Of a DNA stretch of 64,000 nucleotides, positions 31,139 through 45,195 are shown piece after piece. The first letter of the stretch is position 1. The number at the start of each line of letters is the position of its first letter. Made by a program: the position numbers and the translations under genes. This stretch comes from Verrucomicrobium spinosum DSM 4136 = JCM 18804. Its GTDB lineage: Bacteria; Verrucomicrobiota; Verrucomicrobiia; Verrucomicrobiales; Verrucomicrobiaceae. A model generated the notes under the pieces. That model made no database searches. It was not told the origin of the DNA and was given only the letters and a program-made list of their open reading frames with translations. The stretch spans positions 3,939,105 to 4,003,104 of the forward strand of contig NZ_ABIZ01000001.1 in NCBI RefSeq assembly GCF_000172155.1, given 5' to 3'.

Positions 31139-32809
31139 TTATCGACTCAGGTACGCCCGCCATCCACCGTAGGAGGTGATGTCTGTGGCGTCTGCCAGCA
31201 CGTAGGGTTCACACATGAAGCCTTTCACCCAGGTGCCATCTGCTAGTTCCAGATTGCCTATGGTCATGGGGGCGGGAACTCCGGCCGTGAAGCGGCCGAA
31301 CGCCTCGGCAGACAGAATGTAAACCTCGATCTCGATGGCGGTGCCGCCTTGTTTTACCCGTTCCAGCCCCGGCTTGGGTGGGGTGGTATTTGCCAGGGCA
31401 TAGAGCTTGTAGGCGGCGGCCGTGGTGGTGCGCTGTTGCAGGGTGGCCCCCAGTTGGACCAATTGCCCGTGCAGAGGCTGCCCTTGCAAATGAGCTCCGA
31501 CGACCGCGAGTGAAACGGGGCCTTCTGGTGACGCCATGCGCTTGGGCAAAGGTTCCCCCAGGAAACGAGCCGCGAGGTCCAAGAGGCTGTCATCAGCAAA
31601 CGCGGGGGCTACCAAGTTCAAGCCAAAACCCACGCCGTGGCTCCAACGACCTGCGGGGACGGCGACTGCCGCCAGATCGAGCAGGTTGACGAAGTTGTTG
31701 TAGGTGCCCAGCCGACTGTTGAGTTCCACGGGATTCGCCTGAACTTCCGCGATGGTGTAAACGCTGGGGACGGTGGGAACGACCAGGAAGTCCACTTTGG
31801 CGAAGACTTCATCGCTGATGCGCCTCAACTCGGCGAGTCTCACAGCGGCATGGTAAACCGCGCTCGCTTTGAGGTCGCGACCTCCCAGGATGATCTTCGA
31901 CACGGTTGGATCCGCCTCCGCATGATGCTCCTCCAGCCACTCGCCGACGGCGGCGTAGCGCTCAGCAACCCACGGGCCCTGATAGAGCAGCGCGGCGGCT
32001 TCGGCGAAGGGGGCGTAGTCGATCTCGATCTTCGTGCCGCCCAGGCTGGTCAGCTTGTCGCAAGCCGCGGCATAGAGTCCTGCGGCTTCACTGTCGCCAA
32101 AGAACTGCAACTGCTCTGGCCTCGGCACGGCAAAGGTAAAGGCACCCTGTCCCCGGCCATCGCGCACGGAATGCCAAGGGCGGGACATGGGATCCAGGGG
32201 ATCGTACTGGCGGGCGTGGGGCGCAAGCTCCCGCAGCTCGGCCACGGTCCTGGCCATGAGGGTGATGCAATCCAGGGAGCGACAGGCGGGGACAGCATTG
32301 CGGGTGCTGAGCACGCCCTTGGTGGGCTTATAGCCTACGATTCCGTTGAGGATGCAGGGCACGCGACCGGAGCCAGCTGTATCCGTACCGAGGGCGAAAT
32401 CTACCTGCCCGCTGGCCACCGCCACTGCAGAGCCGGAACTGGAGCCGCCGGAGATGTAGTCCGGGTTCAGGACATTACGGCAGATGCCAAAGGGGGAACG
32501 CGTGCCCACCAGACCGGTGGCAAACTGGTCCAGCGTGGTCTTGCCCGCCACTGCCGCACCGGCAGCTCGCAGGGCGGCCACGACGGGATTGTCCTCTGTG
32601 GGTTGGTATCGGTAGGCCGGGCATCCTGCGGTGGTGGGCAGAGGCAGGGCGTCGATGTTGTCCTTCACTGCAAAGACCCTGCCCGCCAGTGGGCCAGTGG
32701 CTGCCGCCAGTTCCATCGCGAAGGCTTCAGGAGACACCACGTCGATCCAGACGGGGCCGTTGCGTTCTGCGTAGAGGGTGGCATGGCGGTCAGCGGGGGA
32801 GTCAGGCAC
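31139..32809 (-). CDS. atzF: Allophanate hydrolase
   Basis: 556 residues from GTG 32809. It is an amidase-signature enzyme with the full Ser-cisSer-Lys triad: Lys49 in FAVKDNI, a Ser near 124 in GGSSSGSA and the nucleophile Ser147 in DTAGSGR. The C-terminal ~130 residues match the extra domain typical of allophanate hydrolases (GQLVQLGATLQQRTTTA through a TSYGGWRAYL end), which sets it apart from other amidases. It hydrolyses allophanate to ammonia and CO2 as the last step after the carboxylase encoded 118 bases upstream. Confidence 0.93.
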   Translation of the reverse strand: MPDSPADRHATLYAERNGPVWIDVVSPEAFAMELAAATGPLAGRVFAVKDNIDALPLPTTAGCPAYRYQPTEDNPVVAALRAAGAAVAGKTTLDQFATGLVGTRSPFGICRNVLNPDYISGGSSSGSAVAVASGQVDFALGTDTAGSGRVPCILNGIVGYKPTKGVLSTRNAVPACRSLDCITLMARTVAELRELAPHARQYDPLDPMSRPWHSVRDGRGQGAFTFAVPRPEQLQFFGDSEAAGLYAAACDKLTSLGGTKIEIDYAPFAEAAALLYQGPWVAERYAAVGEWLEEHHAEADPTVSKIILGGRDLKASAVYHAAVRLAELRRISDEVFAKVDFLVVPTVPSVYTIAEVQANPVELNSRLGTYNNFVNLLDLAAVAVPAGRWSHGVGFGLNLVAPAFADDSLLDLAARFLGEPLPKRMASPEGPVSLAVVGAHLQGQPLHGQLVQLGATLQQRTTTAAAYKLYALANTTPPKPGLERVKQGGTAIEIEVYILSAEAFGRFTAGVPAPMTIGNLELADGTWVKGFMCEPYVLADATDITSYGGWRAYLSR

Positions 32810-32927
32810 GGGGTGGTAAAGGGTGAGAGGTAGAGGTCAGCGGTGGTCAGGATGATGATTCCAGTTATTCAAGCATGTCGCGTGCCTGTTTGGCCGGTGG
32901 TTGCAGTAATTTTGGAGGGCCTCCGCA

Positions 32928-35900
32928 TCAAGCGGCGGTGTCCACCACGATCAGAGCCTGACCGGACTGGACTTGCTTGCCCGCCGCCACCCGGATTTCC
33001 CGGACTCTGCCGGTGGCCGGGCTGACAATTTCGGCTTCCATCTTCATGGCCTCCACGATGACGACAGCCTGGCCTGCTTTGACCTCCTGGCCGGGCTCTA
33101 CGAGCACCTTCCAGAGATTGCCGGTGAGGGGCGTGCGCACCAGTTCGCATCCTTCCGGGGCCAGTTCATCCTCCACAGGTGGCGGCTCGGCCTCGGGTTC
33201 GGAGGCGACCACATTTTGCCCGGCTGCGGCCCAGCGTTCGCGTTCCTCCTGGAATGCCTGCCGCTGGGTGATGCGGAAACTGGCGATGGAGTCGGCGTTC
33301 TGATTGAGGAAGTCGAGATAGTCGCCCAGTTTAAAAGTGGTTTCCTCAATCTTGAGTTGGAATCGACCGAGAGGGAAGTCTTCGCGAAGCTTGAGCAGCT
33401 CCTCCGCGCTTACCGGATAGAAGCGAATCTGGTCAAAGAAACGCAGCAGCCACGGCTTCCCGCCCGTGAAGTCCTGGGTCTGCCGCCAGGCGTTCCACAT
33501 TTGAATGGTGCGTCCCACAAACTGGTAGCCGCCAGGACCCTCCATGCCATAGACGCACATGTAGGCCCCCCCGATGCCCACGGCGTTCTCCGGGGTCCAG
33601 GTGCGGGCGGGATTGTATTTGGTGGTCACGAGCCGGTGGCGGGGGTCCAGCGGGGTGGCCACTGGCGCGCCCAGATAGACGTCACCCAGCCCCATGACCA
33701 TGTAGCTGGCATCGAAGACGATCCGCTGCACCTCCTCGATGCTCTCCAGCCCGTTGATGCGACGAATAAACTCAATGTTGCTCGGGCACCAGGGCGCGTC
33801 TGGGCGCACAGACTGCATGTACTTCTCAATGGCGAGGCGGGTGGCGGGATCGTCCCAGGAGAGGGGCAGATGCACAATCCGGGAGGGGACCTCAAAGTTC
33901 TGGAGGTCGCCCAATTCATCTTCCGCCCGGGCCAGCAGCGCGAGGAGTTCGGTCCGGGGCATGACCCGGTTGTCATAGTGGAACTGGAGGGAGCGGATGC
34001 CGGGGGTCAGGTCAATCAGGCCCGGCAGGTGTTGTTTCCTGATCCATTCCATGAGAGCGTGCACGCGGGCGCGCAGGGTGATGTCCAGCACGAGAGGGCC
34101 GTATTCCACCAGCAGGTATTTGTCCCCCGCGGCCCGGTAGCGCACCTCCACCTGGGTGTCGGTGGCAGGGCGTAGGACCGCGACAGGGCTCTCCAGATCC
34201 GCCACGATCACGGGGCCGGGGCTTTCTGCGGCGGCGGCATAGGTCAGGGATTCCAGCCCGGTGTCCGTGGCGCGTTCAGCAGCCTCCGCCTCCGCCAGTG
34301 TGACGGGGAGGAACTTCAACGTGTCGCCGGGACGGAGCTGTCCCATCATCCATCGGTCGGCGCGAATGATCACCGCCGGGCAGACGAAGCCACCGCAACT
34401 GGGACCGTCTGGGCCGAGGATGATCGGCATGTCGCCCGTGTAGTCGATCGCGCCAATCGCGTAGGCGTTGTCGTGGATGTTGGAGGGGTGCAGGCCAGCC
34501 TCACCGCCGTCCGTGCGGGCCCAGCGGGGCTTGGGACCGATGAGGCGGATGCCGGTGGGGTTGGAGTTGTAGTGCACTTTCCACGCTGTGGCGAAGAAGG
34601 TCTCTATGTCCTCGTTCGTGAAGAAATCAGGAGCCCCATGTGGACCGTAGGTCACGCGGATGACCCACTCGTTCTTCCAGGCTGGAGCGGTGACTCTCGC
34701 GGCCGGGGCCACGCCCGTCTCTACGGCCGCCCCCAGGTGAATGATGTCCCCCGCGCGCAGAGCGCGACCTGCGTGGCCGCCGAAGCCTCCCAAGGTGAAG
34801 GTGGAGCGACTGCCGAGATACACCGGGACATCCAGGCCGCCGCTCACGGCCAGATAGGCGCGCACACCCGTGTCGCCCAGACGGCCTGTTTTCAAGATGC
34901 CACCGGCGGGAATGGCGATGGCCGTGTCCATCGGCACCGATTCGCCGTTCAGGGTTGGTTTCATGCGGGCCCCAGTGAGCGCGACCGTGCAGGCCTGCTG
35001 AAACTTGAGGGTGGGGCCCGCCATGGTTATTTCCAAACCCGCAGCGTGATCGTCATTGCCCACGAGGCGGTTTGCCAGACGGAACGAGACATCGTCCATG
35101 GGGCCGGACGGCGGCACGCCGATGTCCCAGTAACCCAAACGGCCGGGGAAGTCTTGGACGGTGGTTACAGCGCCCGGTTCCAGCACCTCCATGGTGTGCG
35201 GCTGCCAGGCGAACTCCGAGAGCATGCGGGTGGTGGCGTGCCCCGCCAGGAAGGGGGCGTGCTGCAGGACGGCCAGCAGGTAGCTCCGGTTGGTTTCAAT
35301 CCCGGCCAGAGTCGTGCCCTCCAAGGCGCTGCTCAGAGCGGCCACGGCTTGCTCGCGGTCCGCGGCATGGACAATCACCTTGGCCACGAGTGGATCATAG
35401 AATGGGGAGACGGTGACCCCCTGAGTCACCCAAGTCTCCACACGGGCCTGTGGCGGCCAGGCTGCCGCAGTGAGCATGCCGCTGCTGGGCTGGAAGTTCC
35501 GGGCAGGATCCTCTGCATAGACACGTGCCTGGATGCTGTGTCCCTGGGAAACGGGCAGTGTCTCGGGCCAGAAGCCCAGATCCCCCGCCGCCAGACGCAC
35601 CATCCACTCCACAAGATCGATTCCCAGCACCTCCTCGGTGACCCCATGCTCCACCTGGAGCCGGGTGTTGACCTCGAGGAAATAAAACTTCCGGCTGTCC
35701 GCATCGTACACGAACTCGACCGTGCCCGCGGAGCGGTAGTTCACCGCCTTGCCCAGCCGCTCCGCGCAGGCGAGCAGTTCCGCCCGTCCTTCAGATGAAA
35801 GGTGCGGCGCTGGCGTTTCTTCGATGACCTTCTGGTTGCGGCGCTGCACGGAGCAGTCGCGTTCGCCCAGGGCAAGCACGCGTCCTTCGCCATCGCCGAA

Positions 35901-36542
35901 GATCTGCACCTCGATATGCCGGGCGTGACGGACGAACTTCTCCAGAAACAGACCGCTGTCCTTGAAGTTGGCCATGCTGAGCCGCTGCACCGATTCAAAC
36001 TGCGCCCGCAGATCCGAGTCGTTCTCGCAAACCCGCATGCCGATCCCACCACCACCCGCCGTGCTTTTGAGCATGACGGGGTAACCGATGCCTTGGGCCT
36101 TCTCCACCGCCTCATCCACGGTGGCGAGGAGACCGGTTCCCGGCAGCAACGGCACCCCCGACTCCATGGCGATTTCCCGGGCCGTGTGCTTGAGGCCGAA
36201 CTTGACCATCTGCTCAGGCGTGGGGCCGACGAAGGCGATTCCCGCCGCTTCACAGGCGCGAGCAAACTCTGGATTCTCACTGAGGAATCCGTAGCCTGGG
36301 TGAATGGCAGTGGCTCCGGTGGCCTTGGCGGCTGCCAAGACTTTTTCTGTATCCAGGTAACTCTCCTTCGGTGCGGGTGGGCCGATGAGGACCGCCTCGT
36401 CTGCGGCATCCACATGCAAAGATGCCTTGTCAGCTTCTGAGTAAACGGCCACTGAGCCATATCCCAAGCGTTTAAGAGTGCGGGATACTCGGCAGGAAAT
36501 GGCACCGCGATTGGCAATGAGGACCTTGGGCGTGGAAGACAT
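32928..36542 (-). CDS. Biotin-dependent urea/guanidine carboxylase
   Basis: 1204 residues, normal length for the single-chain enzyme. In order: biotin carboxylase with ATP-grasp (residues ~1-450, [13 protein letters not shown] near 155-170), a carboxyltransferase built of KipA/KipI-type halves (~470-1000, [21 protein letters not shown]), and a C-terminal biotinyl domain with Lys1167 in EAMKMEA. It carboxylates urea or guanidine using ATP and bicarbonate. Two DUF1989 genes directly upstream favour guanidine, since that gene set is known as guanidine carboxylase plus carboxyguanidine deiminase. The sequence alone does not settle the substrate. A REP-like pair lies in its leader. Confidence 0.93.
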
Positions 36543-36576
36543 GGGAAGGATGAGAGTGAGTGCTGGGAGATGCTTC

Positions 36577-36707
36577 AGCCGCCTCGAGGCGGTACTCCAA
36601 CCCGCTTCGATGGGAGTCTGAGGGGGGAGTGGAGGGGAGCCGTTCTGGATCGAGCATTCTGCCGCTTGAGTTTCGCAGCAGGGTTGGAGTACCGCCTTTA
36701 GGCGGCT
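36577..36707. repeat. REP-like pair inside the operon
   Basis: Copy 1 (36577-36603) and copy 2 (36681-36707) are 27-base inverted copies that differ only at the two central bases of the small palindrome, AGCCGCCTcgAGGCGG versus CCGCCTttAGGCGG. Each copy is itself a hairpin followed by the tail TACTCCAACCC. Together they can form one large stem. The arrangement is typical of a REP/BIME element placed between the second DUF1989 gene and the carboxylase gene. Confidence 0.8.
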
Positions 36708-36714
36708 CAGGAGA

Positions 36715-37353
36715 TCAGTCCCAAATCAACAATCTGATGGGCGTCGGATTGTAAGCATTGCACGGATTGTTGAGCTGCGGGCAGTTGGAGATCAACGCCA
36801 CCACATCCATCTCGGCTTTCATCTCCACGTACTTGCCGGCATCAGAAATGCCGTCTTCGAAGGTGAGCCTGCCCTCGGGAGTGACCGGCACGTTCATGAA
36901 GAAGTTCACGTTGCTGGTGAGATCCCGCTTGGAGTAGTCGTGGCCATACTCGGCCATTTGAAGCAGGAAGGTGTCGCGGCAGTTGTGCATGTAGCGCTTT
37001 TCGATGGCATAGCGCACCATGTTGCTCTCGGCAGCGCATGCACCGCCCAGGGTGTCGTGACGGCCGCAGGTGTCTGCGGTGATCGTGAGCATGGGGTTCA
37101 GTTCGGTGGAGAGCAGGGTGGAGCCGGTGGTGAGGTAAATCGCCCCCTGTTCCCGGATGGTGTCCACGGCGCTGTAGCGCTCGTCTGCATTGGCAGCATT
37201 GTAGAAGAGTATGTCCACGGCCTGGTTGCCCTCCAAGTCCACGATGCGGAAGGTCTGTCCCTTCTTGATCTCGTGCATCCAGCCGTCACCAGCTTCGATC
37301 ACCTGGTCGTAGATTGCTTGTTCAGGAGTAAGTGGGCTCAGGGTCAGGCTCAT
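36715..37353 (-). CDS. Urea amidolyase-associated protein 2 (DUF1989)
   Basis: 212 residues, one DUF1989 domain. Conserved-looking parts include [21 protein letters not shown], a Cys-bearing [15 protein letters not shown] segment and [14 protein letters not shown]. In the guanidine pathway this family pairs with its paralogue to form a carboxyguanidine deiminase that yields allophanate. In older annotation it is called urea amidolyase-associated protein 2. It is 48 bases downstream of its paralogue and 172 bases upstream of the carboxylase gene, with the REP-like pair in that gap. Confidence 0.88.
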
Positions 37354-37400
37354 GGAAGGAACAGAAAAGGGGGTGAAAAGTGAGGGGCGGGGGCTCTAAG

Positions 37401-38138
37401 TTACATGAAATAACGGTCAGTGAGGATGAGTCCGCGGTCATTCTCCGGGCGGAACTTGCGCACCACGTCTTCAGGCCCGGCGGGCTCGGAGGAGTACACC
37501 ACCAGATGCACTGGCTTGGGATCATAGGTGCCGCTGGGGGCGAGTGGGTGAGGGCAGGTGTTAAGCACAACAAGCGTGTTCAGCCCGGCACGCAGATCCA
37601 CGTGGGCACCTGCTTTGGCGTGAGATTCGTCAAAGTGCAGACCACCCGTATCGTCCACGGTCACTTTGCTGAAGAAGTTTGCATTCGGCACCAGATCCTT
37701 GGCACCCAGTCCATATTTGCCCAGCTCCACCAGAAAACTGTCCCTCCCGTTCCGGTGGTACTTGTTGCGGTGCTCCTGAAAGCTCGCCTTGCCATACTTC
37801 CGCTCCACCAGGGGGGCCGTGCTATGCCCGCAGATCGTGTCGTGCCAGCCGCTGGTGTCGTCTGTGATGGAAACAAGAATGCGCCCCATGTCCGAGTACA
37901 ACGCACGACCGGTCGTCAGATAGGCCACGTGCTGGGCCTTGAGCGTGTCAGACATGTTGTAGCGCTCCACCATCAACTCAAAGTTGAAAAACAGGGCCGA
38001 CACATTGGTGCCGCCGTGAGGATCAATGATGCGCATGGTGCTGCCGCGCTTCAGCACATGCGACCAACTGGCACCGCCGAGCACGACCTCGCGGAAACGG
38101 ACTTTGTCTTCTGGGATGTCTGGGGTGGGGGAGAACAT
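37401..38138 (-). CDS. Urea amidolyase-associated protein 1 (DUF1989)
   Basis: 245 residues, DUF1989 family, paralogous to the next gene. It shares the fold landmarks HVLKRGSTMRIIDPHGG, DDTSGWHDTICGHST with a conserved Cys, and NANFFSKVTVDD, and has a longer C-terminal tail (VVRKFRPENDRGLILTDRY). It is expected to form a complex with the other DUF1989 protein and to deiminate carboxyguanidine. The leader is AATTCCACCCTCCGCATTCCCC before ATG 38138, with no Shine-Dalgarno. It follows the regulator gene by 47 bases. Confidence 0.88.
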   Translation of the reverse strand: MFSPTPDIPEDKVRFREVVLGGASWSHVLKRGSTMRIIDPHGGTNVSALFFNFELMVERYNMSDTLKAQHVAYLTTGRALYSDMGRILVSITDDTSGWHDTICGHSTAPLVERKYGKASFQEHRNKYHRNGRDSFLVELGKYGLGAKDLVPNANFFSKVTVDDTGGLHFDESHAKAGAHVDLRAGLNTLVVLNTCPHPLAPSGTYDPKPVHLVVYSSEPAGPEDVVRKFRPENDRGLILTDRYFM

Positions 38139-38185
38139 GGGGAATGCGGAGGGTGGAATTTGGAAATCGGAATGGAGGGAGCGAG

Positions 38186-38701
38186 CTAGGCGGACTCGGC
38201 GGCGGGGGGCGTCGTGCGACGGATCTTCTTCTTCTGATGGGCAGAGGAGGAGGATTCCCCGGCCTCGTGGAGCGGAGGCAGCAGGGTGGTGCTGAGCTGG
38301 AGCTGACCGTGACGGACGCCTTTAAGGGCGCTCATTTCTTCTTTAATCTCCCGCAAAATGCGGGCCGGACCCTGCACGAGCATGATTTGCAGGCTTTGGT
38401 TGTCCTCCAGGTGCACCAGCTGGATGGTCACGATCTCCCGGAGGTATTTGTGCTGGATGTCGGTCAGCGTGTTCTGCAGGTTTCGCTTTTGGTGATCGTA
38501 GATCAGGCTGATCACCCCCATCATGACTGTGTCGCCCAACTCACTGGCATAGGCGACGAGGTGATCCCGCACCAGGGCGGTCAGGCATTGGGACCGATTT
38601 GCGAACCCGCGGCCGGTCGCCATGCGGTCAAGACCCTCCACGGCGTTTGCGGGCATGGAAACACTGAACCGGATCAGATTGGAGCCTTGGCGCTTTGGCA
38701 T
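38186..38701 (-). CDS. NikR-like ribbon-helix-helix regulator
   Basis: 171 residues from ATG 38701. The N-terminal ribbon-helix-helix (LIRFSVSMPANAVEGLDRM) is followed by an ACT-like ligand domain of the NikR type (GVISLIYDHQKRNLQ, VHLEDNQSLQIMLVQG, GVRHGQL). Compared with E. coli NikR from memory, one high-affinity nickel His is kept but the other His and the Cys ligand appear replaced by Leu and Ser. Nickel response is therefore doubtful and a different effector, perhaps guanidine or a product, is possible. A long Ser/Lys/Arg tail extends the C-terminus. It is the first gene of the leftward operon and probably controls it. Confidence 0.85.
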   Translation of the reverse strand: MPKRQGSNLIRFSVSMPANAVEGLDRMATGRGFANRSQCLTALVRDHLVAYASELGDTVMMGVISLIYDHQKRNLQNTLTDIQHKYLREIVTIQLVHLEDNQSLQIMLVQGPARILREIKEEMSALKGVRHGQLQLSTTLLPPLHEAGESSSSAHQKKKIRRTTPPAAESA

Positions 38702-38857: not shown

Positions 38858-40741
38858 ATGTTCACGGTTCCCATGATGTCCCCTGAAGTCGAGAAACTGG
38901 TCAATGCCGGCAAGCTGTCGCGCGCCGATGGTGAAAAGCTTTCCAACCTCCCTGTGGGAGCGTTCTGCCAGCACAAGAGCTGGGGAGCTGGTCGGATTGC
39001 AGAATGGGACTTGCTGGGCGACCGTGTCGTGATCGACTTCGAAGGCAAGCCAGGGCATCCCATGAAGCTGGGCTTCGCGGCCGGTTCGCTGGAGCCACTG
39101 GCTTCGGATCACATCCTGGCCCGCCGGGTGGGTGATTTGCCCGCGTTGCAGTCCATGGCCAAGGAGCGCCCTGCGGATCTGGTGACGCTGGCTCTGAAGA
39201 GCAGCGGAAAGACCATGTCTCTGGATGCGCTCGAAGGCCTTCTCATTCCCCGCGTCATCAAGGAAGCTGACTACAAAGCTTGGTGGAGTGCCGCCAAAAA
39301 GGCGCTCAAGGACAAGCGCCATATTGTGGTGCCGGCCAAGCGCACGGAACTGCTGGTGCTCCGTGATGAGGATGTGAGGCACGGCAACGCCATGCTGGAC
39401 GACCTCAGGAATGCCCGCGACCTCAAGGCCAAGCTGAATGCGTTGGCCCGCATCCAGAAGGATCTCGACCTCTTTGAGAACCACGCTTCAGACCTCATCC
39501 CCGTGTTCCAGGAACTGGACACCACGGTGCGCAAGTCCTGGAAGCTACAGTTGAAAGAGGCGCTAAACCTGCTGCTCTCCCGCGATGAACTGCTGGACTC
39601 TGCCAAGGGTGCCAAGCTTCCCGAGGGCTCGCTGACAGTGGAGCAACTTCTGCGTGATGCCCGGCCTCAGCTGGCAGATGCTGTGAATGGTCTGCCGGTG
39701 GCGCTGCTCAGCCGCGTGTACAAGGCTTTCCCCGCTGCATTCCCTGATCGCGCCTGGGTCCAGGAGTCGCTGAATCACCTCACCAAGACGGGCGGTCGCG
39801 CCGTGGCCGAAATCGCAGCGGTGCTGGATGCCAACGATGAAATCGACCTGCTTGCCGACTTTTTGAAGAAGGCGGTGCGCAACCGTCAGCTCAGCACGGA
39901 CCTCCTCATCTGGATGTGCAAGGAGCGCAAAGGCAAGGCGGAAGGCGTCTTCGACATGGACCTTGGCAATGCCATCATCAGTGCCCTCGAAGACGACCAC
40001 ATTGCTGGTGGACCCAAGCGCACTGGTCGTCTGCATGACGCTTTCGCCGAAGACATCGGTTTGGTGGGCGAGATGGTGGGTGATGCGGACGCCGACGAAC
40101 TGCGCCTCTTCGCCAAGCGAATCCTTTCCAGCCCGGTGTTCGACGAACTGACCCGTCGTTCCCTGATGGGCCGCCTGATCAAGGCACGGCCGGAGACGCA
40201 GGAACTGATGGACGACACGGGCAACAATCAGGCTGCATCCCTGGTTGTTTCCTGGGACAGCATGGAGAAGCGCAAGATCGAGCTTGAAGAGCTCGTGCGC
40301 GTCAAGATCCCGCAGAACAAGAAGGACATCCAGATTGCCCGTGAGTACGGCGATCTTCGTGAGAACTTCGAGTACAAGTCCGCCCGTCAGCACCAGGCGG
40401 TGCTGCTGCGCATGCAGTCCACTTACGAGCGGGAACTCCGTCGTGCGCGTGGTACGGATTTCGTGGGTGTCAGCACAGAAACGGTCGGAATTGGCACCAT
40501 CGTTGACCTCCAGGACGTCGGGACAGGAAAGACGGAAACTCAAACGATCCTTGGGGCTTGGGATGGAGATCCAGATCAGAGCATCCTCTCTTACCTGTCC
40601 GAGATGGCCAAGGCCCTCATTGGCAAAAGAGTGGGTGACGAAGCCGAACTTCCGACGGATACCCACGGCACGCGGAAGGTGAAGATCGTCAGCATCCGCC
40701 CTTACCGTACGCAGGCAGAGGCCGCCCCGATTGCGGGTTGA
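38858..40741 (+). CDS. GreA/GreB-type transcription factor with long N-terminal extension
   Basis: 627 residues. The last ~170 residues are GreA-like: a coiled-coil tip with the catalytic acidic motif GDLRENFEYKSARQHQ (near residue 497, with the GreA Asp and Glu positions kept) and an FKBP-like C-terminal part (GDEAELPTDTHGTRKVKI). The first ~450 residues contain a small beta domain (CQHKSWGAGRIAEWD) and helical repeats. Chlamydial GreA proteins are also very long, so this form may be a PVC trait. It rescues backtracked RNA polymerase in the family. ATG 38858 is used (38873 and 38876 are alternatives). It is divergent from the NikR-like gene. Confidence 0.85.
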   Translation: MFTVPMMSPEVEKLVNAGKLSRADGEKLSNLPVGAFCQHKSWGAGRIAEWDLLGDRVVIDFEGKPGHPMKLGFAAGSLEPLASDHILARRVGDLPALQSMAKERPADLVTLALKSSGKTMSLDALEGLLIPRVIKEADYKAWWSAAKKALKDKRHIVVPAKRTELLVLRDEDVRHGNAMLDDLRNARDLKAKLNALARIQKDLDLFENHASDLIPVFQELDTTVRKSWKLQLKEALNLLLSRDELLDSAKGAKLPEGSLTVEQLLRDARPQLADAVNGLPVALLSRVYKAFPAAFPDRAWVQESLNHLTKTGGRAVAEIAAVLDANDEIDLLADFLKKAVRNRQLSTDLLIWMCKERKGKAEGVFDMDLGNAIISALEDDHIAGGPKRTGRLHDAFAEDIGLVGEMVGDADADELRLFAKRILSSPVFDELTRRSLMGRLIKARPETQELMDDTGNNQAASLVVSWDSMEKRKIELEELVRVKIPQNKKDIQIAREYGDLRENFEYKSARQHQAVLLRMQSTYERELRRARGTDFVGVSTETVGIGTIVDLQDVGTGKTETQTILGAWDGDPDQSILSYLSEMAKALIGKRVGDEAELPTDTHGTRKVKIVSIRPYRTQAEAAPIAG

Positions 40742-40762
40742 CCCTTGTAAGCGAAACTTCAG

Positions 40763-40798
40763 GCCCCTGACCGGCGTCGGCTGGTCGGGGGCTTTTTT
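40763..40798 (+). terminator. Intrinsic terminator after the GreA-like gene
   Basis: GCCCCTGACC (40763-40772) pairs with GGTCGGGGGC (40783-40792), with one G-T pair, followed by six T (40793-40798). It is 22 bases after the stop codon. Confidence 0.88.
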
Positions 40799-40922: not shown

Positions 40923-41918
40923 ATGCAAGGTCCCCCCTCCAACGTCATCAGCACGGCTCAGGCACTGGCCCTGACCTTCAGCGGCATGAGAGAACTGGGG
41001 ATACTGGACCGGGCACTCTATGGCAACATTCTGCAGCGCATTCTGGTGCAGCATCCGGAGTACCTGGGCGTGTGGACGGTCTGGGAGCCCAACGCGTTGG
41101 ATGGTCGTGATCACGAGTTTGCCCATGCTCCGGGCCACGATGGCACGGGGCGGTTCGTGCCGCTGTGGAACCGGGCGGGTGGCGTGGTGCATCTGGAGCC
41201 CAACGTGAACTACGATGTACCAGGGCAGGGAGACTGGTATCTGCTGCCCACCCAGTGTGGCAGGGAAACGGTGATGGACCCCTACCAGTTCCCGGTGGCG
41301 GGCCGCAAAGAATTCATTACCAGCCAGGTGGCACCGATCTTTTACCAGGGGCGCTGTGTGGGCGCGGCGGGAGTGGACATAGAGATGGATCGCCTTTTGC
41401 AGCCTGAAGCGGAGGAGTTGGAGGAGAGTCTGCATCGCGGTTTTGTGCGCCTGGATGCGAGAGGCAGGATCGACCACTTGAATGCCCGCACGCGGCAGTT
41501 GTTGAGTTCCTTTGTGGGGCGTCGTCTGGTTCAGGAAATGCCCGCGGTCATTCTCCGGCAGATTGCCAGGGTACGAGAGTTTCCGGGCACGGTGGAGCTG
41601 GCACCGTTGCGCCGGGGCAAAGACTCACTGCGGCTGAAGCATGCGCCGCATCCCGAGTCAGGCATGTCTTTGTTGATTGTGGAAGAGGATCTTGATGGAA
41701 GCCCGCAGGCGCCCGACGAAACGCTGACGGCCCGGGAGAAGGAGGTGCTGGAGTGGATGCAGGAGGGCAAAAGCAATCCGGAGATCGGCGTGATCCTGGG
41801 CATCAGCACACACACCGTGAAACGGCACGTGGAGCGGGTGCTGGCCAAGCTGGGGGTTGAAAACCGCGTTGCGGCCGCCTTGTATGGCCAGTCCCAGACG
41901 AAAAGGCACGCCGCATAG
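40923..41918 (+). CDS. LuxR-family regulator with Cache sensor domain
   Basis: 331 residues from ATG 40923 (a GTG at 40881 gives 345). Residues ~10-160 have the hallmarks of a dCache domain: [38 protein letters not shown] and [20 protein letters not shown]. The middle is a PAS-like segment ([22 protein letters not shown]). The end is a LuxR helix-turn-helix ([18 protein letters not shown], then [19 protein letters not shown]). No signal peptide or transmembrane helix is seen, so the Cache domain is cytoplasmic, which is unusual. It likely senses a small amine or amino-acid-like ligand and controls the three genes downstream. Confidence 0.85.
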
Positions 41919-41965
41919 GTCCACCGACCTATATCCGGACGGTGACGATTGCCGCATTGTCCGGC

Positions 41966-43333
41966 ATGACTTCAACGACTCCCGCCGGGCTCACGGCCAT
42001 CAAGGAAGACCTCATTGCCAAAGGGGTGAAATATTGCATCGGCGCGTATGTGGACATCCACGGCGTGCCCAAGGGCAAAGTGGTGCCTGTGAACCACTTC
42101 GAGAGCTTCGCCCAAGGTTCAGAACTGTACACGGGCTACGCACTGGATGGGCTGGGGCAAAGGCCGAATGATGATGAACTCTCCAGCGTGCCGGACCTCA
42201 GCCGCGGCGTGCAATTGCCCTGGCAGCCGGAGGTCATGTGGTACCCTGCGGATCTCGCCTTCCACGGCCAGCCCTATGAAGTCAGCACCAGGGTGGCCTT
42301 TGGTCGTGTGCTGGAGCAGGCGCGATCGATGGGCTTCGGGTTCAACCTGGGCATTGAGTGTGAAGTGTACTTCGTAAAGCAGGAAGAGGGGCGGTTGGTG
42401 GTGCCAAACGCGGATGACAACCTCATGAAGAGTTGCTATGACGTGAAGCGCTTCATGGATGTGTACGGCCTCGTGGATCGCATCGCGACGACCATCAATG
42501 GCCTGGGCTGGGATCTCTACTCACTGGATCATGAGGATGGGAACTCACAGTTCGAGTTCGACTTCAAGTTCGCCGATGGCTTGACCATGGCAGACCGCTA
42601 TGTGTTCTTCCGCTTCCTGGCCAAGAAGCTGGCGGCAGATGCTGGCCTGCTTGCCACTTTCATGCCGAAGCCTTTCGCTGACAAGACGGGGAATGGGGCG
42701 CACTTCAACATGTCCCTGAGCGACCTGGAGACTGGGAGAAATCTTTTCAAGGCGGCTCCTGGTGAAGCGGACGCCTATGGCCTGGGACTTACGGGATTGG
42801 GGTACTCCTTCATTGCGGGAATTCTGAAGCACGGGCGCGCTCTGTGTGCCGCCTTCGCTCCCACGGTGAACTCCTACAAGCGGCTCATCCGTCGTGGCGC
42901 CATGGGGTACTATTCGTGGGCCCCGGTGTTCAATTCGTTTGGCACCAACAACCGCACCAATTCCGTGCGTGTGCCGATGGCGGGAGGACGTTGCGAGTCG
43001 CGCAATGCGGACTCATCCTGCAACCCCTACCTTGCCGGGGCGCTGGTGCTGGCGGCGGGATTGGAAGGGGTGAGGGATGGGCTCCTGCCGGGCCAACCCC
43101 AGACGGAGAACCTCTATGAACTGACGGATGCTCAATTAGCCGAGCGCGGGGTCCAGCCTCTGCCGCGCACCCTGGCCGAGGCGGTGCAGGCCTTTGAGGA
43201 TGATCCCTTCACTGAGCAGGTGTTGGGCTCTGCGCTCAAAAAAGAGTTCATCGAGTACAAACGCGCGGAGTGGGAGGAGTACCACCTGACCATCAGCCCG
43301 TGGGAGGTGCAGAAGTACGCGAGTCTCTTTTGA
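41966..43333 (+). CDS. glnT: Type III glutamate-ammonia ligase (GlnT-like)
   Basis: 455 residues from ATG 41966 (a GTG at 41942 is possible). It has the glutamine synthetase fold with the beta-grasp part ([15 protein letters not shown]), catalytic metal residues ([21 protein letters not shown]), the ATP-site loop [14 protein letters not shown] and the substrate segment ...PTVNSYKRL followed by NRTNSVRVP. Size and motifs fit GlnT, a ligase distinct from GlnA that in rhizobia assimilates ammonia or makes gamma-glutamyl compounds. Its place beside a creatininase and a regulator suggests use of ammonia released from amines. Substrate not proven. Confidence 0.9.
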
Positions 43334-43361
43334 TGAACTCCCCATCTTGCCTCCTCCCGTC

Positions 43362-44153
43362 ATGACGCCATCTTGGTTTGCCCAACTGCCAGTGCCTCCC
43401 GTCCGCAGCCCTGTGCGGCTGGAGCGGCTGGCCTGGCCAGATGCAGCGCACACCCTGCAGGATGTGCTCCTGCTGCCGGTGGGGGCCATGGAGCAGCACG
43501 GTCCCCATCTGCCGTTGCATACGGACACGGTCATTGCCGAGTCCACCTGTCAGCTTGCTTCAGCCCTCACCGGGGCACCGGTCCTGCCCGCCCTGGGGTA
43601 CTCCGTCTCACTCGGCCACACGGTGAAGTGGCCGGGCACGTTCTCCTTGTTTCATGAAACCCTCATGCTCACCGTGCGGGAGATCGCCCAGTGGGCGGCT
43701 GACACCGGCTGGAACCGGCTGCTGATCGTAAACTCCCACTACGGGAACGATGCCGCCCTCCGCTGCGCGGTGGACCGCCTGCGCCACGACCTTGGCGGCA
43801 ATCTCCTCACGGCGACACGGAATACCTGGGACCTCACTCCGGAAATTGCCGGACGATTCACGCATGATGCGGCAGACTGGCATGCCAACGAGGCTGAGAC
43901 ATCCCTCATGTTGTTTCTTGATCCTGCTGCCGTGGTGAAAGAGCGCCTGAGCACGGCAGACGATCCTGATCGCACGATGGGGTGTGTCTTTCCGCACCGG
44001 GTGGCTCACACCAGCCTCAATGGCGTCACCGGAAGGCCAAGTCTGGGTACGGTGGAGCAGGGGGCTCTGTTGATCTCCCGCATGGGAGATGCTCTGGCAG
44101 ATCTGATCCAGAAGGCTCGCGTAGAGCATCCCCCTTTGACTTGGGCCCCCTGA
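43362..44153 (+). CDS. Creatininase-family amidohydrolase
   Basis: 263 residues from ATG 43362. Metal-binding motifs of the creatinine amidohydrolase family are present: VGAMEQHGPHLPLHTD (Glu, His, Asp ligands), the NSHYGND segment and the ANEAETS Glu. Members open cyclic amides or imides, with creatinine only one substrate. The leader is pyrimidine-rich (CCTCCTCCCGTC). It follows glnT by 28 bases and precedes the solute-binding-protein gene by 67. Together with the guanidine-type operon nearby it points to breakdown of guanidino or related nitrogen compounds. The actual substrate is uncertain. Confidence 0.85.
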   Translation: MTPSWFAQLPVPPVRSPVRLERLAWPDAAHTLQDVLLLPVGAMEQHGPHLPLHTDTVIAESTCQLASALTGAPVLPALGYSVSLGHTVKWPGTFSLFHETLMLTVREIAQWAADTGWNRLLIVNSHYGNDAALRCAVDRLRHDLGGNLLTATRNTWDLTPEIAGRFTHDAADWHANEAETSLMLFLDPAAVVKERLSTADDPDRTMGCVFPHRVAHTSLNGVTGRPSLGTVEQGALLISRMGDALADLIQKARVEHPPLTWAP

Positions 44154-44220
44154 AGACGCCGCACATCCTCATCCCGATCAAACATCCCATCCAACCCCTA
44201 ATCCATCCATCCAGAAATCT

Positions 44221-45195
44221 ATGAAAACACTTGTCAAATGCCTGTTCTCCATTGCCGCCGTGGCGTTGTCCTCGGCCGGTCTTCACGCAGAACCACTGAA
44301 AATCGCCTACTCGGACTGGCCCGGATTCACCCTCATCGAGGTGGCCAAACAGAAGGGGTGGTTCAAAGAAGCCGGGGTGGACGTCGAGCTGGTCTGGTTT
44401 GACTACCTGCCTTCGCTGGACGCCTTTGCCTCGGGCAAGGTGGACGCAGTGACCTGCGTCACGACGGATGCGATGGTGACAGGAGCCAACGGTGCCAAGA
44501 GCAAGATCATCTGCCTGCTGGACTACAGTGATGGCGGTGACATGATCATTGGCAAGGCAGGGATCAACTCCATCAAGGATCTTAAAGGCAAAAAAGTGGC
44601 GCTGGAGCTCACGCTCGTGGAGCATCTGCTGCTGCTCAAGGCGCTGGAGGCAAACGGCATGGCTGCATCCGACGTGGAACTGGTGAATACGGCCACCAAT
44701 GAAACACCCCAGACCCTGGTGTCGGGGAACGTGGCCGCCATCGGGGCGTGGTACCCTGTTTCCAACCAGGCGCTCAAGGCGGTGGCGGGGTCCAAGCCCC
44801 TCTTTACCAGCGGCGACGCCAAAGGACTGATCTATGACGGACTCTGCGTGAACCCGGTCAGCTACAGCCAGCGCAAGGCAGACTGGGAAAAGGTGGTGAA
44901 AGTGTACTACAAGTGTGTGGACTACATCCTTGACGAGAAAACCAAGGAGGATGCGGCAGCGATTCTGGCCGCGAAGGTGGGGGCCGAGGTGAAGGACTAT
45001 CTAGCCGCGATGAAAGGCACCCATTTCCTGACGCTTGAGGAAGCCAAAATAGCCTACAAGAAGGGCACAGGGCTGGACTCTGTCTATGGCTCCATGGCGC
45101 TGGGAAACAAGTTCAACCTGGACAACAAGGTTTACACGGAGTCGCAGAAACCGGAGAGCTACTTGGTTCCCGGCATCGTCAACAGCCTCAAGTGA
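44221..45195 (+). CDS. TauA/NMT1-like ABC-transporter solute-binding protein
   Basis: 324 residues with a signal peptide (LFSIAAVALSSAGLHA, cut before EPLKIA). The body has the two-lobed NMT1/TauA fold: KIAYSDWPGFTLIEVAKQ, GKVDAVTCVTTDAMV, LKGKKVALEL and a YPVSNQAL segment. Proteins of this group bind sulfonates, nitrate, pyrimidines or urea-like compounds, and in carboxylase operons they are often called putative urea-binding proteins. No permease or ATPase gene follows in the window, so it is an orphan unless partners lie elsewhere. A hairpin follows 31 bases after the stop. Confidence 0.88.
   Translation: MKTLVKCLFSIAAVALSSAGLHAEPLKIAYSDWPGFTLIEVAKQKGWFKEAGVDVELVWFDYLPSLDAFASGKVDAVTCVTTDAMVTGANGAKSKIICLLDYSDGGDMIIGKAGINSIKDLKGKKVALELTLVEHLLLLKALEANGMAASDVELVNTATNETPQTLVSGNVAAIGAWYPVSNQALKAVAGSKPLFTSGDAKGLIYDGLCVNPVSYSQRKADWEKVVKVYYKCVDYILDEKTKEDAAAILAAKVGAEVKDYLAAMKGTHFLTLEEAKIAYKKGTGLDSVYGSMALGNKFNLDNKVYTESQKPESYLVPGIVNSLK

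Follow-up and report, generated by a model that had tools for sequence, protein, structure and literature searches.

The window, a stretch of 64,000 nucleotides from Verrucomicrobium spinosum, encodes a soluble Cache–LuxR one-component regulator (CLR), which as a whole is best explained, at a probability of roughly 0.55, as a cytoplasmic sensor-regulator of amines or guanidino compounds acting on the GlnT unit that it leads. A guanidine-carboxylase operon lies next to this unit on the opposite strand. The features that bear on this reading are the following.

31139..32809, minus strand: allophanate hydrolase (AtzF-like); TIGR02713 699 bits, cut-off 511
32928..36542, minus strand: guanidine carboxylase, annotated as urea carboxylase; TIGR02712 1884 bits, cut-off 1304
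36715..37353, minus strand: UAAP2 (DUF1989), carboxyguanidine deiminase subunit; TIGR03424 342 bits, cut-off 285
37401..38138, minus strand: UAAP1 (DUF1989), carboxyguanidine deiminase subunit; TIGR03425 323 bits, cut-off 206
38186..38701, minus strand: NikR-fold regulator, canonical nickel-ligand set absent; NF003381 115.8 bits, cut-off 105
40761..40794, plus strand: intrinsic terminator between a GreA-like gene and the CLR unit; 15-pair stem followed by a T-run
40923..41918, plus strand: CLR, 331 aa; called from Pfam, amine-motif residues, hydropathy and dN/dS
41942..43333 (alternative ATG 41966), plus strand: GlnT, type III glutamine-synthetase-like ligase; TIGR03105 575.7 bits, cut-off 469.6
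43347..44153 (alternative ATG 43362), plus strand: creatininase-family amidohydrolase; PF02633 198 bits
44221..45195, plus strand: NMT1-type periplasmic binding protein; NMT1 78 bits

An earlier note on this DNA had described a Cache sensor fused to a LuxR output and devoid of a signal peptide or helix, and our domain and hydropathy analyses bear this out. Pfam places an MCP-like_PDC_1 module at residues 34-158 of CLR (36.7 bits, cut-off 27) and a GerE helix-turn-helix at residues 267-320 (68.8 bits, cut-off 23.5), which makes it a member of the LuxR/GerE family. The middle of the protein, about residues 165-255 (160-260), matches no family, and no second PDC module was matched, so that CLR lacks the double Cache of the dCache_1AM family. 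We read the whole frame from stop to stop and found neither a signal peptide nor a membrane helix from any in-frame start, the highest 19-residue mean hydropathy being 1.01. A structure predicted from four input sequences reached a mean pLDDT of 41.

The Cache module carries the residues of an amine-type pocket, although amine detectors of this type usually face the cell exterior. Its nearest solved relatives by sequence are 3li8 (7.9e-29), 9heh (1.3e-27), 7psg (4.6e-25) and 3lib (1.9e-24); 7psg is the betaine-bound PacA domain and 3lib a Methanosarcina mazei kinase domain. The amine motif of dCache_1AM (PctD R103, D133, W155, F188/Y189, M215, S217 and D235) has counterparts in CLR at R30, D60 or D63, W82, W105/Y106, I132, S134 and D152, a correspondence that runs through alignments to 3lib, 7psg and 9heh rather than through a direct alignment to PctD. 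Among 24 CLRs, R30, D60, D63, W82, Y106 and D152 are invariant. Position 105 is Trp or Tyr, position 132 is Ile, Leu, Val, Phe or Cys, and position 134 is Ser in 17 proteins and Thr in three, Ser-134 thus being absent in 7 of the 24. According to the excerpted text of PMC10104139, alanine substitutions of PctD R103, W155, F188 and D235 lower choline affinity 162- to 373-fold, and a solved M. mazei kinase domain, apparently 3LIB, binds dimethylamine with a KD of 0.53 uM.

Domain searches reproduced exactly the four-gene content previously reported for positions 40923-45195. The genes are separated by 23, 13 and 67 bp, and the terminator sets the unit off upstream; loci L009 and L010 retain its stem-loop with some bases changed. 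GlnT is closest among solved chains to the glutamate–methylamine ligase 9qur (345 bits). The GlnTs of loci L137-L139 and L112 form a separate clade, and the neighbours of the L137-L139 genes are presumably glutamate-synthase-like. For the third gene, the assignment to the creatininase family stands, but creatininase itself does not, since the protein scores 109.5 bits against a cut-off of 235 for creatininase proper (TIGR04448), and a simple creatinine pathway was rejected for this reason. The label TauA-like for the binding protein is a loose one, with 43 bits for the taurine model versus 115 for SsuA_fam and 114.2 for the urea-carboxylase-associated TIGR03427, the latter two themselves below cut-off (333.9 for TIGR03427).

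That this binding protein comes without a permease is correct locally but not genome-wide. It shares 46-54% identity with binding proteins from operons in which permease and ATPase genes come next, and a 67-69% identical paralogue, accompanied by a permease and an ATPase, lies 400 kb away in the same Verrucomicrobium genome. The binding protein is likely served by an importer in trans, with the distant permease and ATPase as its partners; its action as a lone sensor is less likely given this paralogue.

The proposed connection to guanidino nitrogen proved strong. Residue 700 of the adjoining carboxylase is an Asp of the guanidine type, at a position that is Asn in yeast urea amidolyase (K. lactis position 1330), and every other carboxylase that we read also has Asp there. 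The excerpted text of PMC11410670 uses this Asp as the mark of a guanidine carboxylase. Both carboxyguanidine deiminase subunits (CgdAB) and allophanate hydrolase stand alongside, all above cut-off, and relatives unite the two halves in one cluster. The operon also contains a NikR-like gene, conserved with it in relatives, whose product passes the curated NF003381 score yet reaches only 74.3 bits against 175.45 for TIGR02793. Aligned to solved NikR, whose nickel ligands we take to be H76, H87, H89 and C95, it carries Leu in place of H87 and Ser in place of C95, and Cys-95 is missing from all 14 distinct copies read, including that of the window.

We then considered how CLRs are distributed. 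Our set comprises 24 proteins from 15 genomes, several of one genus and thus non-independent. On the same strand and within 10 kb of CLR we found GlnT in 20 of 24 cases, a binding protein in 22 and a creatininase-family gene in 12; by the same measure, CLR is linked to guanidine genes less often than to GlnT (carboxylase 1/24, UAAP1 3/24). GlnT is missing at L155 and L163; two further loci, L101 and L170, sit at the edge of a contig. Carboxylase was detected by similarity in 13 of 14 CLR genomes, versus 48 of 315 genomes of the class. In one genome (G914, L154) CLR leads cgdAB, a carboxylase with the guanidine-type Asp, and the creatininase-family, GlnT and binding-protein genes. Co-conservation, which the earlier note had named as a test of its proposal, thus holds for CLR with glnT, a linkage found again in further families of the class, but the strict four-gene neighbourhood was seen in no more than three genomes, all of Verrucomicrobium. 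In G786, G884 and G803 (L156, L158 and L160), which belong to another family, the gene order is the same apart from one insertion, and a permease and an ATPase follow. All nine operons compared from outside the genus contain binding-protein, permease, ATPase, creatininase-family and GlnT genes together with cgdAB, with the carboxylase in eight of the nine stretches and the NikR-like gene also in eight. CLR is absent from all nine stretches, and it is therefore not required. On this comparison, the GlnT, creatininase-family and binding-protein genes are one half of a Verrucomicrobiota guanidine-carboxylase operon, which has been split in Verrucomicrobium.

The search of the class (384 genomes, 78 matched, mostly by the helix-turn-helix or a receptor Cache alone, with scoring limited to five candidates in each genome) recovered CLRs from at least 14 genomes, and the idea that CLR is confined to Verrucomicrobium was dropped on this basis. 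Across the phylum (288 genomes, 12 matched) CLR was found in G131 and in two genomes of the Verrucomicrobium genus; the other nine matches, with frames of 634-768 aa, were taken by length as chemoreceptors or other receptors. A search with the Cache part gave no sign of CLR on plasmids among the 40 listed of 282 records, and six unannotated plasmid matches have frames of 694-772 aa, a chemoreceptor-like length. In Pseudomonadota, 69 of 398 genomes matched at 1e-12; of the candidates scored (at most five per genome), 20 stretches were taken up and four proteins scanned with Pfam, none of them a CLR but two soluble chemoreceptors and two response-regulator LuxRs, a sample that does not prove absence.

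The neighbourhoods allow for a second reading, possible though clearly less probable, by which the ligand of CLR is a (methyl)amine that has nothing to do with guanidine. GlnT and the creatininase-family protein would then make up an amine-assimilation branch of their own, having no more than the importer and the neighbourhood in common with the guanidine genes. The nearest solved relatives of both Cache and GlnT are indeed amine-related, and L156-L161, L165, L168 and L169 have GlnT and importers without an adjoining carboxylase. Against this, the carboxylase accompanies CLR in nearly all CLR genomes, and the GlnT and creatininase-family genes lie inside the cgdAB–carboxylase cluster of the nine CLR-free operons. 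It is unlikely that GlnT is an ordinary glutamine synthetase assimilating the ammonia that the guanidine pathway releases, with CLR answering to general nitrogen status. GlnT does exceed the curated cut-off for a type III glutamate–ammonia ligase, but it lacks the Asp and Ser of the FDGSS motif, which we take to be the ammonium-site residues of glutamine synthetase: YTGYA replaces this motif in all 25 close GlnT rows with a readable site, the window copy included, and the methylamine ligase 9qur likewise has no Asp there. Finally, it is very improbable that CLR is a constitutive or decaying LuxR protein that has lost sensing and was stranded by rearrangement: CLR evolves faster than GlnT (dN 0.053-0.057 versus 0.013-0.015) and the locus is rearranged in the genus, but dN/dS is 0.09-0.11 among three Verrucomicrobium copies, which shows purifying selection, the pocket residues noted above do not vary, and the GlnT linkage is repeated in other families.

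Under the preferred reading of CLR as an amine or guanidino sensor-regulator, a nitrogen compound would enter through the binding-protein importer, probably using the permease and ATPase encoded elsewhere in the genome. A small cationic ligand, either taken up or released by the pathway and most likely a methylated amine or guanidino compound, would bind the Cache pocket, and the LuxR domain would then turn on the glnT, creatininase-family and binding-protein genes, possibly also those for guanidine carboxylation. GlnT is predicted to glutamylate an amine rather than ammonium, while carboxylase, CgdAB and allophanate hydrolase would convert guanidine to ammonia.

We searched for RNA and DNA elements that could control these genes. 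No guanidine riboswitch matched Rfam at gathering score in the window and 12 other Verrucomicrobiota stretches (13 in total), and the same scan found one in three of five Pseudomonadota loci. A Pseudomonadota carboxylase locus (L132) also has none, and the absence is thus not peculiar to Verrucomicrobiota. A scan for palindromic operators upstream of CLR gave none, but it was insensitive and overlooked the terminator already known there in two of the three sequences. One may tentatively go further and propose that guanidine, or methylated guanidines or amines, are sensed inside the cell by a protein, CLR, which together with the nickel-blind NikR-like regulator replaces the riboswitch in Verrucomicrobiota. 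It would stand over an extended guanidino pathway that supplies the carboxylase with substituted guanidines by way of a GMAS-like GlnT and a hydrolase of the creatininase family, joined in some loci by a Rieske oxygenase and an enzyme similar to biuret hydrolase.

A group of guanidine-degradation operons with no detected riboswitch is accompanied by protein regulators of two kinds, and one of these is a soluble protein with an amine-type Cache pocket. If confirmed, CLR would allow guanidino compounds or methylamines to be sensed with a single gene and would show that an amine Cache works as a single-chain cytoplasmic transcription switch, and GlnT and the creatininase family may widen guanidine degradation to substituted guanidines. 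The unit had been put forward as an undescribed system for scavenging amine or guanidino nitrogen. Its guanidino link stands, but the degradation pathway is known, and so is an intracellular amine-type Cache beside a transcription factor, in Actinobacteria (PMC10104139, in excerpt). The combination with CLR was not found among the literature matches listed. Term searches of PMC12186494, PMC11410670 and PMC12508155 returned neither "glutamine synthetase" nor "NikR", and "creatinin-" only as a metabolite in one text; "Cache" is absent from PMC3466318.

We compared the locus to the systems that have been described. The guanidine carboxylase operons in the excerpted texts of PMC12186494, PMC11410670 and PMC12508155 stand under guanidine riboswitches, which are the guanidine-sensing systems treated there. 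They share with the Verrucomicrobiota operons an ABC importer, a carboxylase with the guanidine-type Asp, CgdAB and allophanate hydrolase, whereas the Verrucomicrobiota stretches scanned have no riboswitch and carry in addition GlnT, a creatininase-family gene and protein regulators. GMAS (9qur) is the closest solved relative of GlnT, whose own substrate here is a prediction. CLR resembles the dCache_1AM sensors PctD, PacA and 3LIB in its match to their first PDC module and in its pocket residues, but the members tested in the available part of PMC10104139 are two-module sensor domains of membrane receptors, whereas CLR is a soluble transcription factor with a single module. The same excerpts describe, in Actinobacteria, a dCache_1AM protein that stands alone inside the cell, its gene adjacent to that of a transcription factor. 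Both cases place an intracellular amine-type Cache next to a transcriptional output, in Actinobacteria as two proteins from a two-gene operon and in Verrucomicrobiota as a single chain that has LuxR as its output and is linked to GlnT and guanidine genes. Soluble Pseudomonadota chemoreceptors with a C-terminal Cache (L084 and L086; L087 by likeness) have a Cache of the same family and no membrane-like segment, with top 19-residue hydropathies of 1.09-1.44. Their output, however, is a chemotaxis signalling domain, and that of CLR is DNA binding.

The earlier note proposed a nitrogen-scavenging unit made of a soluble Cache–LuxR regulator (CLR), GlnT, a creatininase-family protein and a solute-binding protein. 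All four genes were found where it placed them, with intergenic gaps of 23, 13 and 67 bp. The guess at function was broadly right, but the unit is a rearranged part of a guanidine-carboxylase system. The host genome is a single contig of 8.22 Mb, and Verrucomicrobium sp. BvORR034 and BvORR106 share 88-99% protein identity with the window over these genes. A strong terminator, kept in two relatives, separates CLR from the upstream GreA-like gene. The features are as follows.

31139-38701, minus strand: NikR-like gene, UAAP1 and UAAP2 (carboxyguanidine deiminase subunits, cgdAB), carboxylase, allophanate hydrolase
38186-38701, minus strand: regulator of NikR fold, associated with guanidine operons in Verrucomicrobiota
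38858-40741, plus strand: protein with a long N-terminal region joined to GreA-like C-terminal domains, between the split operon's two halves
40923-41918, plus strand: CLR
40923-45195: four-gene unit

The minus-strand operon very probably encodes a guanidine pathway, as its carboxylase has an Asp at the Asn position of K. lactis urea amidolyase and is accompanied by a DUF1989 pair. In the available part of PMC11410670, this Asp, the mark used here, is one of two published for guanidine carboxylase, and carboxyguanidine deiminase is formed by DUF1989 pairs. Among CLR genomes, the guanidine-type Asp was read in five (the window, L009, L010, G131 and G914).

We compared the unit with GlnT loci in 276 Verrucomicrobiota genomes (E <= 1e-60). 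Thirteen genomes matched: two belong to this genus, nine have GlnTs at 65-72% identity, and the other two GlnTs (52%, 41%) are distant and lack the layout described here. In all nine close genomes outside the genus, the genes for binding protein, permease, ATPase, creatininase-family protein and GlnT are consecutive, with the last two swapped in G215. UAAP1 and UAAP2 lie in the same stretch as GlnT in 9/9, and the carboxylase in 8/9; the G048 contig ends first, and its carboxylase opens another contig. Allophanate hydrolase is present in six stretches, the contig ending in G039 and G048 and continuing without the gene in G131. The cluster includes a NikR-like gene in all but G210. In G240 and G215, the part separating GlnT from the NikR-like gene contains a Rieske, FGE-type and TIM-barrel set. 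From this contiguous layout in 9/9 close genomes, which we take as ancestral, we infer that the window's three non-regulatory genes (glnT, creatininase-family, binding protein) represent one half of an operon that has been broken up. The same genome carries a counterpart of the missing importer half some 400 kb from the unit, near 4.386-4.389 Mb (locus L118, 7503-10581). Its binding-protein paralogue is 67-69% identical, its permease and ATPase are 50% and 66% identical to their G131 counterparts, and the three together are likely the importer partner of the window unit.

The regulator belongs to a CLR family present in several families of the class. Four CLR queries against 384 genomes of the class recovered Cache–HTH proteins from 14; with BvORR106 added, there are 24 CLRs in 15 genomes, BvORR034 and G217 being one assembly by coordinates. 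Beyond the window, Pfam confirmed those of L016, L154 and one of L165, the remainder being assigned by alignment. The proteins occur in long (about 330-400 aa) and short (about 230-260 aa) forms. On the same strand and within 10 kb of CLR we found a binding protein at 22/24 loci, GlnT at 20 (a second GlnT type included), permease at 17, ATPase at 16, creatininase-family protein at 12, UAAP1 at three and carboxylase at one. The four loci lacking GlnT are L101 and L170, at contig edges, and L155 and L163, away from edges. In G786, G884 and G803 (L156, L158, L160), CLR is followed in turn by GlnT, a glutamine-amidotransferase-like protein, creatininase-family protein, binding protein, permease and ATPase; in G914 (L154) it comes first, followed by cgdAB, carboxylase, creatininase-family protein, GlnT and binding protein. 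Recurring partners, named by Pfam from one representative each, are Rieske oxygenase, isochorismatase-family, polysaccharide-deacetylase-type, FGE-type and TIM-barrel proteins, the last under its Pfam cut-off. The best model for the isochorismatase-family partner is biuret amidohydrolase (212 bits vs a cut-off of 370). The Rieske, FGE-type and TIM-barrel set, possibly a demethylation branch, recurs beside GlnT or CLR at L162, L163, L164, L166 and L167, and is also seen in CLR-free L103 and L104.

By similarity, the carboxylase is present in 13 of 14 CLR genomes, the G806 match covering residues 5-744 only. In the fourteenth, G729, UAAP1 and UAAP2 reach the end of the stretch (L167). Across the class it occurs in 48/315 genomes and 31/144 genera, and eleven of those 48 are CLR genomes. 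G914 and G970 match the carboxylase and are absent from the 315-genome listing, and so were not drawn in that sample; G729 was possibly drawn without a match, which makes at least 11/12 the fair count. Chance co-occurrence at this level is 3.8e-9, or 1.2e-5 by genus (7/7), with kinship above genus ignored in both.

As regards CREATININASE and GlnT, the window GlnT scores above the type III model cut-off, and its closest solved relative is glutamate–methylamine ligase. It lacks the Asp and Ser that serve the ammonium site in true glutamine synthetases. YTGYA occupies this position in all 25 readable close rows, CLR-linked and CLR-free alike (L169, unreadable there, is outside the 25). The GlnT tree unites CLR-linked and NikR-linked loci in a single supported group (26 rows, 96/93) that excludes the second GlnT type, L134-L136 and GlnTs found in other contexts. 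Two Pseudomonadota loci, L132 and L133, also fall in this group, as does L111, a long branch of unsure placement. The second type (L164 5528-7099, L166 9079, L167 1743) forms its own clade, and its L164 member scores 432 bits, under the type III cut-off of 469.6. The creatininase-family protein is far under the creatininase cut-off; it retains the family's first Glu, His, Asp and His and has Gly at creatininase's further Glu, residues that presumably serve the metal site.

Among 299 Pseudomonadota genomes (E <= 1e-100), eight contain GlnT. The GlnTs of G397 and G317 are close (65-67%) and accompanied by a creatininase-family gene and carboxylase cluster (L132, L133); those of G427 and G463 are at 52% and also occur with carboxylase genes (L134, L135). 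None of these four stretches yielded a CLR match. The soluble chemoreceptors encoded at Pseudomonadota loci L084, L086 and L087 have their signalling domain at the N-terminus and a Cache of CLR's family at the C-terminus (L087 by likeness).

Rfam gathering thresholds gave no guanidine riboswitch in the window and 12 other Verrucomicrobiota stretches, three of which (L101, L156, L164) hold no carboxylase inside the stretch. The scan works, as it found Guanidine-I or -II riboswitches in three of five Pseudomonadota loci (L133, L134, L135), with none in carboxylase-bearing L132 or in L136. By NikR nickel-ligand numbering, none of the 14 distinct copies of the NikR-like protein that were read has the Cys ligand; the window copy also lacks one His, and some copies retain both His. 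Together, the missing riboswitches and Cys ligand suggest that protein regulators may do the riboswitch's job, and the NikR-fold regulator is a candidate non-nickel sensor. An inverted repeat, TTCGT-GTT-ACGAA, lies upstream of its gene and is identical in three genomes.

The window CLR combines a single Cache module of PDC type (residues 34-158) with a LuxR/GerE helix-turn-helix (residues 267-320). Residues ~165-255 matched no family; they are tentatively termed PAS-like, judging only by how the sequence looks and by matches spanning the same part of some response-regulator LuxR proteins. No in-frame start codon yields a hydrophobic N-terminus, in agreement with the claimed lack of a signal peptide. 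In 23/24 CLRs, taken as whole stop-to-stop frames, 19-residue hydropathy never exceeds 1.6; the single exception, in L165 (1.98), is an internal segment. Among solved Cache domains, the CLR Cache part is most similar to the amine group. At the places of the amine motif, taken from the available part of PMC10104139, alignments with 3lib, 7psg and 9heh put R30, D60 or D63, W82, W105/Y106, I132, S134 and D152. R30, D60, D63, W82, Y106 and D152 are invariant in 24/24 CLRs; position 105 is Trp in 23 and Tyr in one, position 132 Ile in 18, Leu in three and otherwise Val, Phe or Cys, and position 134 Ser in 17, Thr in three and another residue in four.

Cytoplasmic Cache proteins are not unheard of: the accessible portion of PMC4822843 describes two Cache families as mainly intracellular and counts transcription factors among the outputs of Cache proteins, and that of PMC10104139 describes a stand-alone intracellular amine-type Cache adjoining a transcription factor in Actinobacteria. 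Among the papers listed by our literature searches, none showed a single-chain CLR in a guanidine/GlnT setting. The actinobacterial Cache, as described there, stands beside a transcription factor; CLR joins Cache and LuxR output in one chain.
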